DNA of 11,552 bases, taken from assembly GCA_945874815.1 (NCBI GenBank), contig CAMCIE010000018.1:1-11552 (forward strand). The letters are read 5' to 3'. Every line of letters begins with the position of its first letter. Positions within the stretch are counted from its first letter, which is position 1. This stretch comes from an uncultured Bacteroidales bacterium (GTDB lineage: Bacteria > Bacteroidota > Bacteroidia > Bacteroidales > UBA932). Shown here piece after piece: positions 7,115-11,552 of this stretch. The position numbers and the translations under genes were made by a program. Under the pieces are notes generated by a model. The model had not been told where the DNA came from. It worked only from the letters and a program-made list of their open reading frames with translations, and ran no database searches.

Positions 7115-7534
7115 ATGATTTCCTATTATTTTGAGGATACAGACTTCATTTTTAAGGGTAAAACCAAGAACAACCGTTGGTTAAAACTTGTAGCAGAGAG
7201 TGAGATTCGCCGAATCGGCAACATCTCTATAATATTCTGTTCTGACAATTATATTCTTGACGTTAACCAGAAATATCTCCAACATGATTATTTCACGGAT
7301 ATAATCACTTTCGATTATTGTGAATCTGATAAACTGTCAGGAGATCTATTCATAAGTGTTGACAGTGTCAGGGAAAACTCTGTTGAATATGGAACCGAGT
7401 TCGAGGATGAACTCAACAGAGTGATTGTTCATGGAGTCTTGCACCTTATAGGTTATGATGATCATTCTGAGTCTGATATTGAAATGATGAGAAAGAAGGA
7501 GAATTACTATCTTTCATTAAGAGAGCTTATATAA
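7115..7534 (+). CDS. ybeY: rRNA maturation endoribonuclease YbeY
   Basis: YbeY is a metal-dependent RNase involved in 16S rRNA 3'-end maturation and 70S ribosome quality control. The 139-residue protein shows the [16 protein letters not shown] region (51-66), corresponding to the family's N-x-x-Y...TD...SF block, and the metal-binding motif [12 protein letters not shown] (106-117). Histidines 106 and 110 keep the usual spacing, but H117 is one residue further away than in E. coli YbeY (H114, H118, H124). The third ligand is known to vary in Bacteroidota, so activity is still likely. The start at 7115 fits a leader of about 10 nt from the -7 element at 7091. Its TAA overlaps the mnmG ATG by one base (TAATG), so the two are probably translationally coupled. 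Confidence 0.93.
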
Positions 7535-9633
7535 TGTTTAGTATCAAATACGATGTAATAGTAGTTGGAGGTGGTCATGCAGGTTGTGAAGCCGCTATGG
7601 CAGCCTCAAGGATGGGGTCATCAGTCTTGCTGATATCCATGGATATGGGCAAATTTGCCCAGATGTCTTGTAATCCAGCTATAGGTGGAATAGCTAAAGG
7701 TCAGATAGTCAGAGAGATAGATGCTTTAGGAGGTTATACGGGCATAGTAACGGACTCTTCAACTCTTCAGTTCCGGATGCTGAACCGCTCTAAAGGGCCG
7801 GCAATGTGGAGCCCTCGCGCTCAATGTGATAAAATACATTTTTCTCTCAACTGGCGCAAAATTCTCGAAAGTAATTGTAAATTAGATATTTACCAAGATA
7901 CAGTCACTTGTTTTGTCTTTTCTGGCTCAAAAATTTCCGGAGTCCGTACAACTACTGGGGCAATTTTCAATTCTCAGACAGTTATCCTGACTGCCGGAAC
8001 CTTCCTTGACGGAAAAATGTTCATCGGAAGGACAATGTTCGAAGGGGGAAGGATAGGGGAGTTGCCTTCTCATGGTTTGACTTCGCAACTTGTTACAATG
8101 GGAATCCAGACGGCAAGAATGAAAACCGGCACTCCTCCAAGAATTGATATTTCTTCTGTTGATACCTCAAAGCTCGTTCAGCAGACCGGGGATGTTGTTC
8201 CTGATAAATTCTCATATCTTCCTTATCTCTCAACAGCACAGAATGGAACTCCCCAGATGCCATGTTTCATTGTACATACCAATCCTCAAGTACATGACAT
8301 CCTGAAGAGCGGGTTCGGAGATTCTCCTCTATTCACTGGACTCATTAAAGGAATTGGACCACGTTACTGCCCGAGCATTGAGGATAAGCTCCGGACATTT
8401 GCCGACAAACAAGAACATCAGCTTTTTCTTGAACCCGAAGGAAGATTTACCAATGAATATTATCTCCAGGGATTTTCTTCTTCTCTTCCTTTGAATATAC
8501 AGATGGATGCTCTGCATTCAATCAAAGGACTTGAATATGTTAAAGTTTTCCGCCCAGCCTATGCAGTAGAGTATGACTATTTTGATCCTACTCAGCTTAA
8601 ACCAACCCTTGAACTTAAAGAAATAGAAAATCTCTTCTTTGCCGGACAGATTAACGGAACTACCGGGTATGAGGAAGCTGCTGCCCAGGGTTTGATGGCT
8701 GGTATTAACGCACATCTTAAGGTTCACGAAAAAGATCCGTTCATTTTGAAAAGAGACGAGGCTTATATTGGTGTTCTGATTGATGACCTCATTACTAAAG
8801 GTGTCGATGAACCCTATAGAATGTTTACCTCAAGGGCAGAATACCGGATTCTTCTCAGACAGGATAATGCTGACCTCAGACTTACCCCTATTTCTCATAC
8901 CATTGGACTTGCTGATGATTTCAGGTATGATTATACCATGAAAAAGTACGATAAAATTTCGTCCTTTAATGATTTTTTCGAGCAGGCATCCATCAAGCCT
9001 GATGAGGTTAATCCATACTTGGAATCGGTTTCATCTTCTCCCGTTGAGCATAGAGTTAAGATTTCAAGTCTTATTTCACGTCCTCAGACATCGATTCATT
9101 CTTTGTTTGATTTAGTTCCACGTGGAACACTAAATAAATATCAAATTAATATTGATGAGATGTTTGAATCTCCGCTTAAAGGTTTATGTAAGGATTATTC
9201 AGACCTTGTAAAGTATAATTCATATTCTGGTTTAAGTAATACTTTAGGTTCAGATTACGGTCATGCGATTTCAATGACAGATGCCGGATATGTGCTTCAA
9301 ACCAATTCAGAATATCCTTTATCACTTCTCGAAAGGGGGAGAATGGATGAAATTGTAGTAGAGAATTACAAAAGAGAGATTCTTGATTCCTCTGAGATTT
9401 CTATCAAGTATAAGGGTTATATCGAGAGGGAGAAACAACTTGCAGATAAGATTCAGCGTTTGGAGAATCTTATAATCCCTGATGGATTTGACTTTGATAA
9501 GGTAGAAAGCCTTTCAATTGAGTGCAGACAAAAATTGAAAAAGTACTCTCCTCGCACAATAGCCCAGGCTTCCCGTATATCCGGAGTTTCCCCGGCCGAT
9601 ATATCCGTCCTTCTGGTTTATTTTGGAAGATAA
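7534..9633 (+). CDS. mnmG: tRNA uridine-5-carboxymethylaminomethyl modification enzyme MnmG (GidA), with an apparent C-terminal-region insertion
   Basis: MnmG, with the GTPase MnmE, builds the cmnm5 group on wobble U34 of certain tRNAs using FAD. The sequence shows the FAD-binding [10 protein letters not shown] (12-21), SCNPAIGG with C46 (45-52), GTPPRID (199-205), YCPSIEDK with C279 (278-285) and [18 protein letters not shown] (369-386). The conserved C-terminal domain ends in the typical [18 protein letters not shown] block (678-695). At 699 residues it is about 70 longer than the usual 620-630. The extra material lies about 531-600, between [14 protein letters not shown] and the VVENYKREI...KYKGYI helix region. 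This extra stretch is AT-rich and starts at an embedded parS-type palindrome (9114-9129) that encodes VPRGT. The reading frame is uninterrupted, so the protein is probably functional. No trmE/mnmE, gidB or parAB is adjacent. Confidence 0.95.
9114..9129. other. parS-type centromere site inside mnmG
   Basis: AGTTCCACGTGGAACA contains a perfect 14-bp palindrome, GTTCCACGTGGAAC, and matches 15 of 16 positions of the ParB-binding parS form TGTTCCACGTGGAACA (general consensus TGTTNCACGTGNAACA). It falls in frame and encodes V528 to T532 of MnmG. The same 14-mer recurs 521 bp downstream. Confidence 0.75.
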
Positions 9634-9634
9634 A

Positions 9635-9650
9635 AGTTCCACGTGGAACT
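9635..9650. other. parS-type centromere site just downstream of mnmG
   Basis: AGTTCCACGTGGAACT is a perfect 16-bp palindrome with the same GTTCCACGTGGAAC core. It sits in the 28-bp gap between the convergent mnmG and ruvA, starting 2 nt after the mnmG stop. A transcript of ruvA could fold it into a 6-bp stem followed by TTTT, so a weak terminator role is an alternative, but the exact repeat in mnmG favours ParB binding. Confidence 0.78.
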
Positions 9651-9661
9651 AAATCATAAGC

Positions 9662-10246
9662 CTAGAGTTTTTTCAGAGCGAGTTTAATAAGCTCCTCGAC
9701 AGAAGCTCCAGGCTTTTCTTTTATGATAGAATTAAGCACTTTGTTTACATTTGGTTTGGTGAATCCGAGCATAACCAAAGCCGTGGTAGCTTCTTCTGCA
9801 TTGCTGTTTGCTGCACTCTGGAAGAGGGTAGTGTCCGATCCACCACCTTTGACAACCTTGTCCTTCAGCTCAAGAATGAGCCTCTGAGCACTTTTAAGAC
9901 CTATTCCTTTAATGCTTTTTATCTTATTTATGTCCTCCGCTATTATGGCGTTTCTGATTTCATCCGCTGTAAGGGAAGACAACATCATTCTGGCAGTGGA
10001 AGCTCCTATACCTGACACTCCGATCAGAAGACGGAAAAGTTCCCTTTCATCCTTTGTGCAGAATCCATAGTAGAGTTCTTCGTCTTCACGCAAATAATGA
10101 TGGATATATACAGTCACATCTTCTTTTGCGTTGAATCCTTCATAGGATTGAAGTGATATAAGAATTCGGTATCCTATTCCATGACACTCTACAACCATGT
10201 CCGTTGGTGTCAATTCTATGGTCCTGCCTTTAATGTAATCTATCAT
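9662..10246 (-). CDS. ruvA: Holliday junction-binding protein RuvA
   Basis: RuvA binds four-way junctions as a tetramer and loads RuvB rings for branch migration. The 194-residue product is of family length and has the N-terminal OB-fold (MIDYIKGRTIEL, about 1-62). Two helix-hairpin-helix motifs follow, VSGIGASTA (77-85) and IKGIGLKSAQRL (112-123), then a glycine/serine-rich linker (about 134-148) and the C-terminal RuvB-binding domain III (about 149-194). The frame continues upstream to an ATG at 10285, but the -7 element at 10274-10281 lies inside that extension and the family starts at MIDYIKG, so ATG 10246 is chosen. It converges on mnmG with 28 bp between, which hold a parS-type site. 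Its partner ruvB is 7.5 kb away on the other strand. Confidence 0.95.
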   Translation of the reverse strand: MIDYIKGRTIELTPTDMVVECHGIGYRILISLQSYEGFNAKEDVTVYIHHYLREDEELYYGFCTKDERELFRLLIGVSGIGASTARMMLSSLTADEIRNAIIAEDINKIKSIKGIGLKSAQRLILELKDKVVKGGGSDTTLFQSAANSNAEEATTALVMLGFTKPNVNKVLNSIIKEKPGASVEELIKLALKKL

Positions 10247-10273
10247 AATACTGCCTGATTTTTGTATCAGATG

Positions 10274-10281: not shown

Positions 10282-10315
10282 TCATAAAATCAGATTAAAA
10301 GAGAAATATGTTTAG

Positions 10316-10323
10316 TAAATTTG
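10316..10323 (+). promoter_or_regulatory. Promoter -7 element of sufS
   Basis: TAAATTTG matches TAnnTTTG exactly, 20 nt before the ATG at 10344. It lies downstream of the alternative in-frame ATG at 10308, which supports 10344 as the sufS start. No clear -33 TTG is visible. Confidence 0.55.
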
Positions 10324-10343
10324 CAGGATTTTCAGACAATAAT

Positions 10344-11552
10344 ATGGCTTCTATTACTGACATACGTTCCATGTTCCCGGCACTTGAGAGAAAAGTGTAT
10401 GGAAAGAATCTCGTGTATTTGGACAATGCTGCCACAGGGCATAGGCTTTCTTCTGTGATTGAAATGTGGGATGAATCGAGCAGAAACCATAATTCAAATC
10501 TTCACAGGGCTGTACATTTGCTCGCATCCGAGGCTACCGAGGAATATGAATCTGCAAGGGATGCAGTCAGGCAATATATCAATGCTGAAAGCAGGGAAGA
10601 GGTTATTTTTACTTCCGGAACAACAGCTTCAATCAATCTTGTCGCTTATAGTTTCGGTGAGGCCTTCGTCAAGGAAGGAAGCGAAATCATTGTAACGGAA
10701 GTTGAACATCATTCCAATATAGTTCCCTGGCAGATGCTCTGTCAGAGGAAGGGAGCTTTCCTGAAAGTGCTTCCTGTTGATGATGATGGATATCTCAGGA
10801 TTGAATGTCTTGAGAATATGATGAACGACAAGACTGCGATTGTATGTGTCAGCCATATTTCCAATGTACTGGGTATAGTGAATCCGGTGAAGGAAATTGT
10901 GAGGATCTGTCATTCAAAAGGAGTTCCTGTCTTGATTGACGGAGCTCAGGGAGCTGTTCACTGCAGCGTGGACGTGCAGGATATTGATTGTGATTTTTAT
11001 GCATTTTCAGGTCATAAGATTTATGCTGCAACGGGTACCGGAGTATTGTATGGAAAGAAGAAATGGCTTGAAGCAATGCCTCCGTTCATGGGAGGCGGGG
11101 AGATGGTCGGTACGGTTAAATTCTCCGGAACCACTTATGCTCCGCTTCCTATGAAGTTTGAGGCCGGTACTCAGAATTTCTCTTCAGCAATAACTCTGAA
11201 ACCTGCTTTGGAATTCCTTAAATTATTGAATGGTAATGAATTAACTCAATATTTTGAAAGAGTGAAGGCTTTTGTGCTTGACTCTCTTCTGAAAGACGAG
11301 AGAATTCGGCTTTTCGGTGTTCCTCGTGGAACAGCGGATGACAAGATAGCCTTGTTTTCGTTCTGTGTTGAAGGAGTTCATCATGAGGATCTCGCTCTTA
11401 TCCTTGACAAGATGGGCATAGCAACCAGGTCAGGACAAATGTGTGCGGAACCTATAATGGACAGATTCGGCGTGTCAGGAATGCTTAGGGCTTCCTTTGC
11501 TCCTTACAACACTAGTGAAGAGGCTGAATATTTTATAGAATGCCTGAACAGG
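10344..11552 (+). CDS. sufS: Cysteine desulfurase SufS (3' end cut by window edge)
   Basis: SufS is a PLP enzyme that takes sulfur from L-cysteine as a persulfide for Fe-S cluster assembly by the SUF system. The frame is open for 403 codons to the window end; E. coli SufS has about 406 residues, so only the last few are probably missing. Visible features are LDNAATG near the N-terminus, EVEHHSN with H123 over the PLP, IDGAQ (D199, Q202), the SGHK PLP lysine K225, and the active-site loop RSGQMCAEP with C367. In E. coli SufS that loop reads RTGHHCAMP, so the HH pair is QM here. Start 10344 (MASITDIRSMFP) matches the family; an in-frame ATG at 10308 adds 12 unlikely residues. No other suf gene is in view. 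A class-II desulfurase of the CsdA type is an alternative name. Confidence 0.9.
   Translation, partial: MASITDIRSMFPALERKVYGKNLVYLDNAATGHRLSSVIEMWDESSRNHNSNLHRAVHLLASEATEEYESARDAVRQYINAESREEVIFTSGTTASINLVAYSFGEAFVKEGSEIIVTEVEHHSNIVPWQMLCQRKGAFLKVLPVDDDGYLRIECLENMMNDKTAIVCVSHISNVLGIVNPVKEIVRICHSKGVPVLIDGAQGAVHCSVDVQDIDCDFYAFSGHKIYAATGTGVLYGKKKWLEAMPPFMGGGEMVGTVKFSGTTYAPLPMKFEAGTQNFSSAITLKPALEFLKLLNGNELTQYFERVKAFVLDSLLKDERIRLFGVPRGTADDKIALFSFCVEGVHHEDLALILDKMGIATRSGQMCAEPIMDRFGVSGMLRASFAPYNTSEEAEYFIECLNR
11318..11333. other. Near-parS palindrome inside sufS
   Basis: TGTTCCTCGTGGAACA differs from TGTTCCACGTGGAACA at one base, in the central CACGTG. It encodes VPRGT in SufS, the same five residues as the site in mnmG, so part of the match could come from protein sequence. 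Binding by ParB would be weakened by the central change. Confidence 0.25.

Follow-up and report, generated by a model that had tools for sequence, protein, structure and literature searches.

Predicted parS sites at mnmG mark a probable origin-region centromere in a Bacteroidales genome and recur across the Bacteroidota

Introduction

A stretch of 11,552 nt from an uncultured Bacteroidales bacterium (GCA_945874815.1, contig CAMCIE010000018.1; the whole stretch is referred to here as the window) carries the same 14-bp palindrome twice, once within the housekeeping gene mnmG (gidA) and once just beyond it. The palindrome resembles parS, the landing site of the partition protein ParB, for which the portions of PMC10197239 and PMC7383237 on which we draw give the chromosomal consensus TGTTTCACGTGAAACA. 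The locus raises the questions of whether these copies belong to a segregation centromere, whether their placement is peculiar to this genome, where they stand relative to the replication origin, and how such a site is maintained inside a reading frame.

Results

The parS-type sites of the window

The features of the window are given in Table 1. An exact motif search and the TIGR00136 match of the surrounding ORF confirmed what had been read from the sequence, namely two exact 14-mers with starts 521 bp apart, one inside mnmG and the other directly after its stop codon. Both copies match the palindrome form GTTYCACGTGRAAC, for which none of 200 shuffles gave a match. Site 2 occupies the 28-bp gap separating mnmG from the convergent ruvA gene, and together with one base on either side it forms a perfect 16-bp palindrome. 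Scanning the window for Rfam families and tRNA genes returned no match.

Table 1. Coordinates of predicted parS sites and neighbouring features in the window
Feature	Position (nt)	Strand	Details
mnmG (gidA)	7534–9633	+	699 aa; TIGR00136 equivalog above cut-off; anchor gene of the predicted parS sites
Lineage-specific MnmG insertion	9115–9366	+	about residues 528–611; starts at VPRGT; based on alignments
Predicted parS site 1	9115–9128	.	exact GTTCCACGTGGAAC; within mnmG codons 528–532 (VPRGT), frame 0
Predicted parS site 2	9636–9649	.	exact GTTCCACGTGGAAC; starts 2 nt beyond the mnmG stop
ruvA	9662–10249	-	TIGR00084 above cut-off; convergent neighbour past site 2
sufS-family cysteine desulfurase	10308–11552	+	TIGR01979 above cut-off; truncated by the contig at its 3' end; contains site 3
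parS-like site 3	11319–11332	.	GTTCCTCGTGGAAC; one mismatch (parS position 6); in-frame VPRGT within sufS

A search of the whole metagenome-assembled genome (MAG G000; 1.709 Mb in 302 contigs, 72.8% complete) returned three sites at up to one mismatch, all of them on this contig, while a reversed control motif returned none. The third, which the original prediction did not include, lies in sufS and departs from GTTYCACGTGRAAC at one base. At up to two mismatches there were 8 sites versus 9 for the reversed control, so the five further two-mismatch sites are at control level.

Conservation in the genus and across the phylum

The genus is represented by 61 genomes, 53 of which gave an mnmG match; two of these matches (G012 and G053) were weak and were judged not to be mnmG, leaving 51. 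Among 50 genus loci, that of the MAG included, 38 have an exact in-gene site and 45 have one at up to one mismatch, the other five lacking it at that threshold. Downstream, 26 of the same loci have an exact site no more than 150 bp past the mnmG stop codon and 31 have one at up to one mismatch, and none of 47 loci has a site within 300 bp upstream of the gene. Genomes lacking any site at up to one mismatch were one of the 51 with mnmG (G043) versus seven of the ten others (Fisher p = 2e-6).

The placement at mnmG is not peculiar to the window. Exact GTTYCACGTGRAAC was found in or within 200 bp of mnmG in 60 of 62 named mnmG loci (the exceptions being L070, with one mismatch, and L089, with none), a set that is biased to word matches and includes two loci from outside the phylum (L089, Phycisphaerales, and L094, Cereibacter). 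A phylum sample of 98 genomes besides the MAG (completeness at least 90%), from all of which mnmG was retrieved, was drawn to reduce this bias. Of these 98 genomes, 88 have an exact site no more than 600 bp from mnmG and 86 have one no more than 200 bp away; such counts, like those for the genus, come from related genomes and are not independent, and some families are sampled far more heavily than others. Allowing one mismatch, 93 of the 98 have a site within 600 bp. At least one exact site occurs somewhere in 92 of the genomes, and the exact sites total 220, of which 175 are within 600 bp of mnmG, versus about 0.2 expected at random placement, and 45 are not. Families with at least one linked genome number 27 of 29, and genera 50 of 58. 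In many of the phylum genomes the sites stand ahead of the mnmG start, and copies of the word are also found in non-coding sequence next to the gene.

Clustering of the largest flanking ORFs gave 36 groups on the upstream side of mnmG (94 loci), the biggest with 26 loci, and 26 groups on the downstream side (98 loci), the biggest with 21. Since the neighbours are this diverse, the tie between mnmG and parS is not simply one conserved gene block, and the idea that parS was kept merely through such a block was rejected.

No site was found near mnmG, even at one mismatch, in five of the 98 phylum genomes: G137 (locus L128), G191 (L145), G164 (L146), G113 (L199) and G134 (L202). ParB is present in all five; in G137 and G164 the exact sites are on different contigs from mnmG, and G191 has no exact site, so that the centromere of such genomes may have moved or changed. 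Outside the phylum, the alphaproteobacterium Cereibacter johrii (L094) has GTTTCACGTGAAAC at the mnmG start (10003) and again 57 bp after the gene's end (11905), so that the parS–mnmG tie may be older than the phylum.

The in-frame sites of mnmG and sufS

MnmG of the window is longer than in most relatives, in which it has about 620 residues, and the extra residues begin at VPRGT. Alignments to two solved chains matched the protein up to residue 525 or 529 and resumed at 616 or 617. The insertion is predicted to be largely helical (10-residue pLDDT means of 72–93, with one block of 59), and in the MnmG model (36 sequences, mean pLDDT 88) VPRGT would form a turn between two helices. Dependence of the site on this insertion of 75–80 residues was considered and rejected, because many genus members with MnmG of 617–630 residues have the same in-frame site and lack the insertion. 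The site therefore probably came before the insertion, the alternative being that the insertion was lost.

Some loci carry additional or differently placed words. Two MAGs with Prevotellaceae titles, whose isolate names suggest a termite source, have three in-frame parS or parS-like sites each in mnmG (L048: 10233, 11127 and 11184; L049: 1956, 2850 and 2949); in each, two of the three are in the region of the window's in-gene site, and one site of L049 has a mismatch. L152 has an exact in-frame word at mnmG codon 128, read as VSRGT, where its relatives have other residues, and L214 has one at codon 633, read as VPRET, in the C-terminal tail.

The sufS copy is more variable. At the same SufS codons, L173 has GTTCCACGTGGAAC and L159 has GTTCCACGTGAAAC, both of which match GTTYCACGTGRAAC, and GTTCCACGTAGAAC is found in L160, L162 and L163. 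Nine near relatives and L157 show third-position changes (CCT, CCG, CCC or CGG), and the remaining 13 of 28 sufS loci lack the pentapeptide VPRGT, these genus members having other residues there. The mismatch of the window's site 3 falls at position 6, one of the two positions at which parS and Noc sites differ in the part of PMC7383237 used here, and so probably weakens the site.

ParB, ParA and Smc

A TIGR00180 profile search found ParB in 25 of 26 genomes, the exception being MAG G000, and in 54 of the 61 genus genomes (MAG included), among them 24 of the 25 of good quality. The absence of parB from the genome had been named as evidence that would count against parS; TIGR00180 found none in the MAG itself, which is 72.8% complete. 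In L251 a ParA-like ORF, judged to be ParA by eye, precedes parB. The ParB of genus member G016 contains the GERRFRA motif, and when this one genus protein was aligned to Noc (7nfu) it showed R and G at the positions of R173 and G201 (Caulobacter numbering), two positions that PMC7383237, in the sections available, describes as conserved in ParB and parS-specific. The claim that the palindromes are parS is thus upheld by the consensus, the very few copies per genome, the conservation around mnmG and the parS-type ParB residues in one genus member. To judge from this sequence evidence the sites are very probably real parS, with ParB binding and function as their expected properties.

The original prediction also had ParB recruit SMC, and this part received no support: neither the MAG nor the four good genus genomes gave a TIGR02168 match above cut-off. 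The search for a condensin consisted of TIGR02168, which exceeded its threshold in 11 of 21 genomes, in two of them as separate pieces. G130 has sub-threshold pieces, and nine genomes (G000, G013, G016, G042, G044, the Alistipes genome G199, G129, G157 and G195) are below cut-off, with weak coiled-coil-like matches only. ParB and parS occur together without a TIGR02168 Smc in the four good genus genomes and in G129, G157, G195 and G199, all Bacteroidia; by this profile Smc is present in two further members of that class, G102 and G133. The missing matches fit PMC10197239, the available text of which reports no known condensin in its two Bacteroidetes.

Position relative to the replication origin

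Both mnmG and dnaA could be placed in 16 complete genomes. Their distance is at most about 60 kb in seven (G102, G103, G130, G152, G163, G173 and G175) and greater in nine, five of which were sampled for GC skew in 10 or 20 stretches of 20 kb, giving a resolution of about 100–300 kb. In Alistipes G199 (3.02 Mb), dnaA is at 34 kb, parB at 756 kb and mnmG near 1.828 Mb, and the cumulative skew minimum is at the mnmG slice. The minimum spans 780–866 kb in G129 (mnmG at 876 kb), 110–330 kb in G143 when read round the circle (mnmG at 123 kb) and 0.92–1.1 Mb in G165 (mnmG at 0.93 Mb). In G195 the curve is flat at its bottom between 2.64 and 3.08 Mb, with the lowest slice about 0.3 Mb past mnmG (2.76 Mb). 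The minimum is therefore at the mnmG slice or the adjoining gap in four of the five complete relatives, and dnaA is elsewhere in all five. In each of these five genomes parB, like dnaA, is far from the skew minimum. A sequence record that begins with dnaA does not necessarily begin at the origin.

Within the genus, contig C1 of G016 has its minimum in the 210–230 kb slice, which contains the end of mnmG, in a skew that is very weak. The window's own skew changes sign several times and was left out of the origin inference. The DnaA box TTATMCACA does not occur in the window; in ten mnmG loci it was found once each in L051 and L082 and twice in L078. The skew of the complete relatives favours the proposed origin-proximal location, and the predicted parS sites likely lie in the origin region.

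Discussion

Alternative explanations of the palindromes

The in-gene copies in mnmG and sufS could be protein motifs, with VPRGT kept as a peptide and the DNA likeness secondary. Consistent with this, in-gene mnmG sites lying well inside the frame (genus and phylum loci) are in frame 0 in 40 of 40 exact cases, mostly as VPRGT, and in seven of eight one-mismatch cases, the exception being codon 577 of L109, and part of the variation among the sufS copies is at third codon positions. Sites that overlap the mnmG start or stop codon (L203, L229, L238, L242 and L156) are in another frame. The two readings make different demands on codon choice, which was examined in an alignment of 64 mnmG coding sequences (50 genus loci and 14 named loci placed in the same clade by identity). 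L035 was left out, as its mnmG coordinates are identical to those of G059 (L098); L042 and L043 are nearly identical, and a duplicate filter on the last 600 bases removed no sequence. Among the 213 conserved columns scored (residues V, P, R, G, T, A, S and L), ranks 1–4 for codon conservation are taken by GGA, CGT, GTT and CCA of the parS site, where the modal codon accounts for 98–100% versus a median of 35–45% for V, P, R and G columns; the fifth site codon, whose third base is outside the 14-mer, ranks 10. Relatedness acts on all columns alike because they come from the same sequences. Synonymous changes in the first four codons are confined to L161, in which the site is lost (the in-gene site is lost from L113 as well), and all other changes of site codons alter the protein (CAT, TGT, AGA, CTA and, at the fifth codon, ATA). 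These ranks, together with the protein-altering changes, indicate that the in-gene mnmG site is under selection as a DNA word and not as a peptide, and the peptide reading was rejected for mnmG. VPRGT moreover opens a fast-changing segment missing from most of the phylum, and the word itself recurs in non-coding DNA, neither of which suits a peptide motif; across both genes, that explanation is very improbable.

Site 2 could instead be mainly a transcription terminator between the convergent mnmG and ruvA genes. With its flanks (9635–9650) it scores on the minus strand, the ruvA side, as a terminator-like hairpin with six pairs, a 4-nt loop and a T-rich tail, and is the sole such match in 9000–9800 (mean of shuffles 0.4). 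As the main function, termination would leave the in-gene site 1, the pre-start sites of the phylum and the exact shared word unexplained, and we give it only a slight chance of being the correct account; because the hairpin scores as it does, site 2 may nonetheless serve twice, and a double role as parS and terminator is possible. Another protein might also bind the palindromes in place of ParB, either some CACGTG-type regulator, the CACGTG core being a common 6-bp palindrome, or Noc, as the aligned genus ParB shares a lysine with Noc at one position (positions from the consulted part of PMC7383237). Against this, a genome holds few exact matches, most of them at a single locus. The Noc-binding site (NBS) shares the overall palindromic form of the window sites, but according to the same part of PMC7383237 it has A1 and C6, whereas sites 1 and 2 have G1 and A6, the parS type, and the two switch residues of the G016 ParB are R and G. 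Binding by such a protein instead of ParB is extremely unlikely.

A centromere anchored at mnmG

Our preferred reading, which we hold to be highly probable, is that the window sites are chromosomal parS, forming a segregation centromere that is anchored at mnmG in the origin region, with the in-frame site kept as a DNA word. The sites would be predicted ParB landing sites of a Bacteroidales chromosome, and by position and GC skew the Bacteroidota centromere would stay with mnmG in the origin region, while dnaA and parAB may lie hundreds of kilobases away. By analogy with the known system, these few sites would be the loading points of ParB-CTP, which would spread along the adjacent DNA and be pulled by ParA. 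In the genus, one parS appears to have been absorbed into the mnmG reading frame with the DNA word retained, the same site codons presumably persisting while the adjoining MnmG protein changed, in some members becoming up to about 80 residues longer. Part of the genus has an extra copy in the sufS frame, which in the subclade of the window no longer matches exactly. Given that the genomes yielded no canonical Smc, the sites probably act via ParA, and perhaps a condensin of another kind, rather than via Smc-ScpAB.

A broader proposal is that mnmG and parS form an ancestral centromere–origin unit of the Bacteroidota, kept whole while dnaA, parAB and the neighbours left, retaining its five-codon word inside the frames of housekeeping enzymes and working in lineages without canonical Smc; taken in full, this has about an even chance of being right. 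An mnmG-linked parS would be a simple, testable marker of origin and centromere for a major phylum of the gut in which dnaA can mislead, and it could serve even in fragmented MAGs. It would also be a case of a segregation site selected inside coding DNA, with codon choice set by the DNA word and a protein insertion adjoining it. Genomes without a recognised Smc raise the question of what role parS has there.

Comparison with known systems

The origin has been connected with this gene before. In the sections consulted, PMC2099444 lists gidA/gidB among origin genes, and PMC11278836 and PMC12843772 report Ori-Finder origins beside mnmG in Flavobacteriaceae (Mariniflexile and Bizionia-group strains), so that an origin beside mnmG is already published for two members of this family, although one figure legend of PMC11278836 labels mnmG as ter, against its text. 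Mariniflexile resembles the present case in that mnmG marks the origin region and dnaA did not fit the skew. In Blattabacterium the skew places the origin in dapB, and no gidA or dnaA was found there (PMC2768785, relevant portion). The available parts of the gidA/mnmG origin reports make no mention of parS at mnmG, whereas here the tie is through parS and extends across most of the phylum sample. In the open-licence literature, as far as its accessible text goes, we recognised no description of a phylum-wide parS–mnmG link or of in-frame parS peptides; a 2007 parS survey may contain part of this. The parS clusters of gut bacteria studied by Hi-C (PMC10197239) are similar in that a parS cluster marks ori and dnaA does not always do so, and differ in that the gene carrying the sites is unnamed in the portion consulted. 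Compared with the parS of the ParABS system, the window sites share the palindrome, the few clustered copies, a position near the skew-defined origin in relatives and the presence of ParB in the genus. They differ in that position 4 of GTTCCACGTGGAAC is C where the consensus has T, with a corresponding G in the other arm, and in that the sites are tied to mnmG and not to parAB or dnaA, one of them lying in frame inside the gene.
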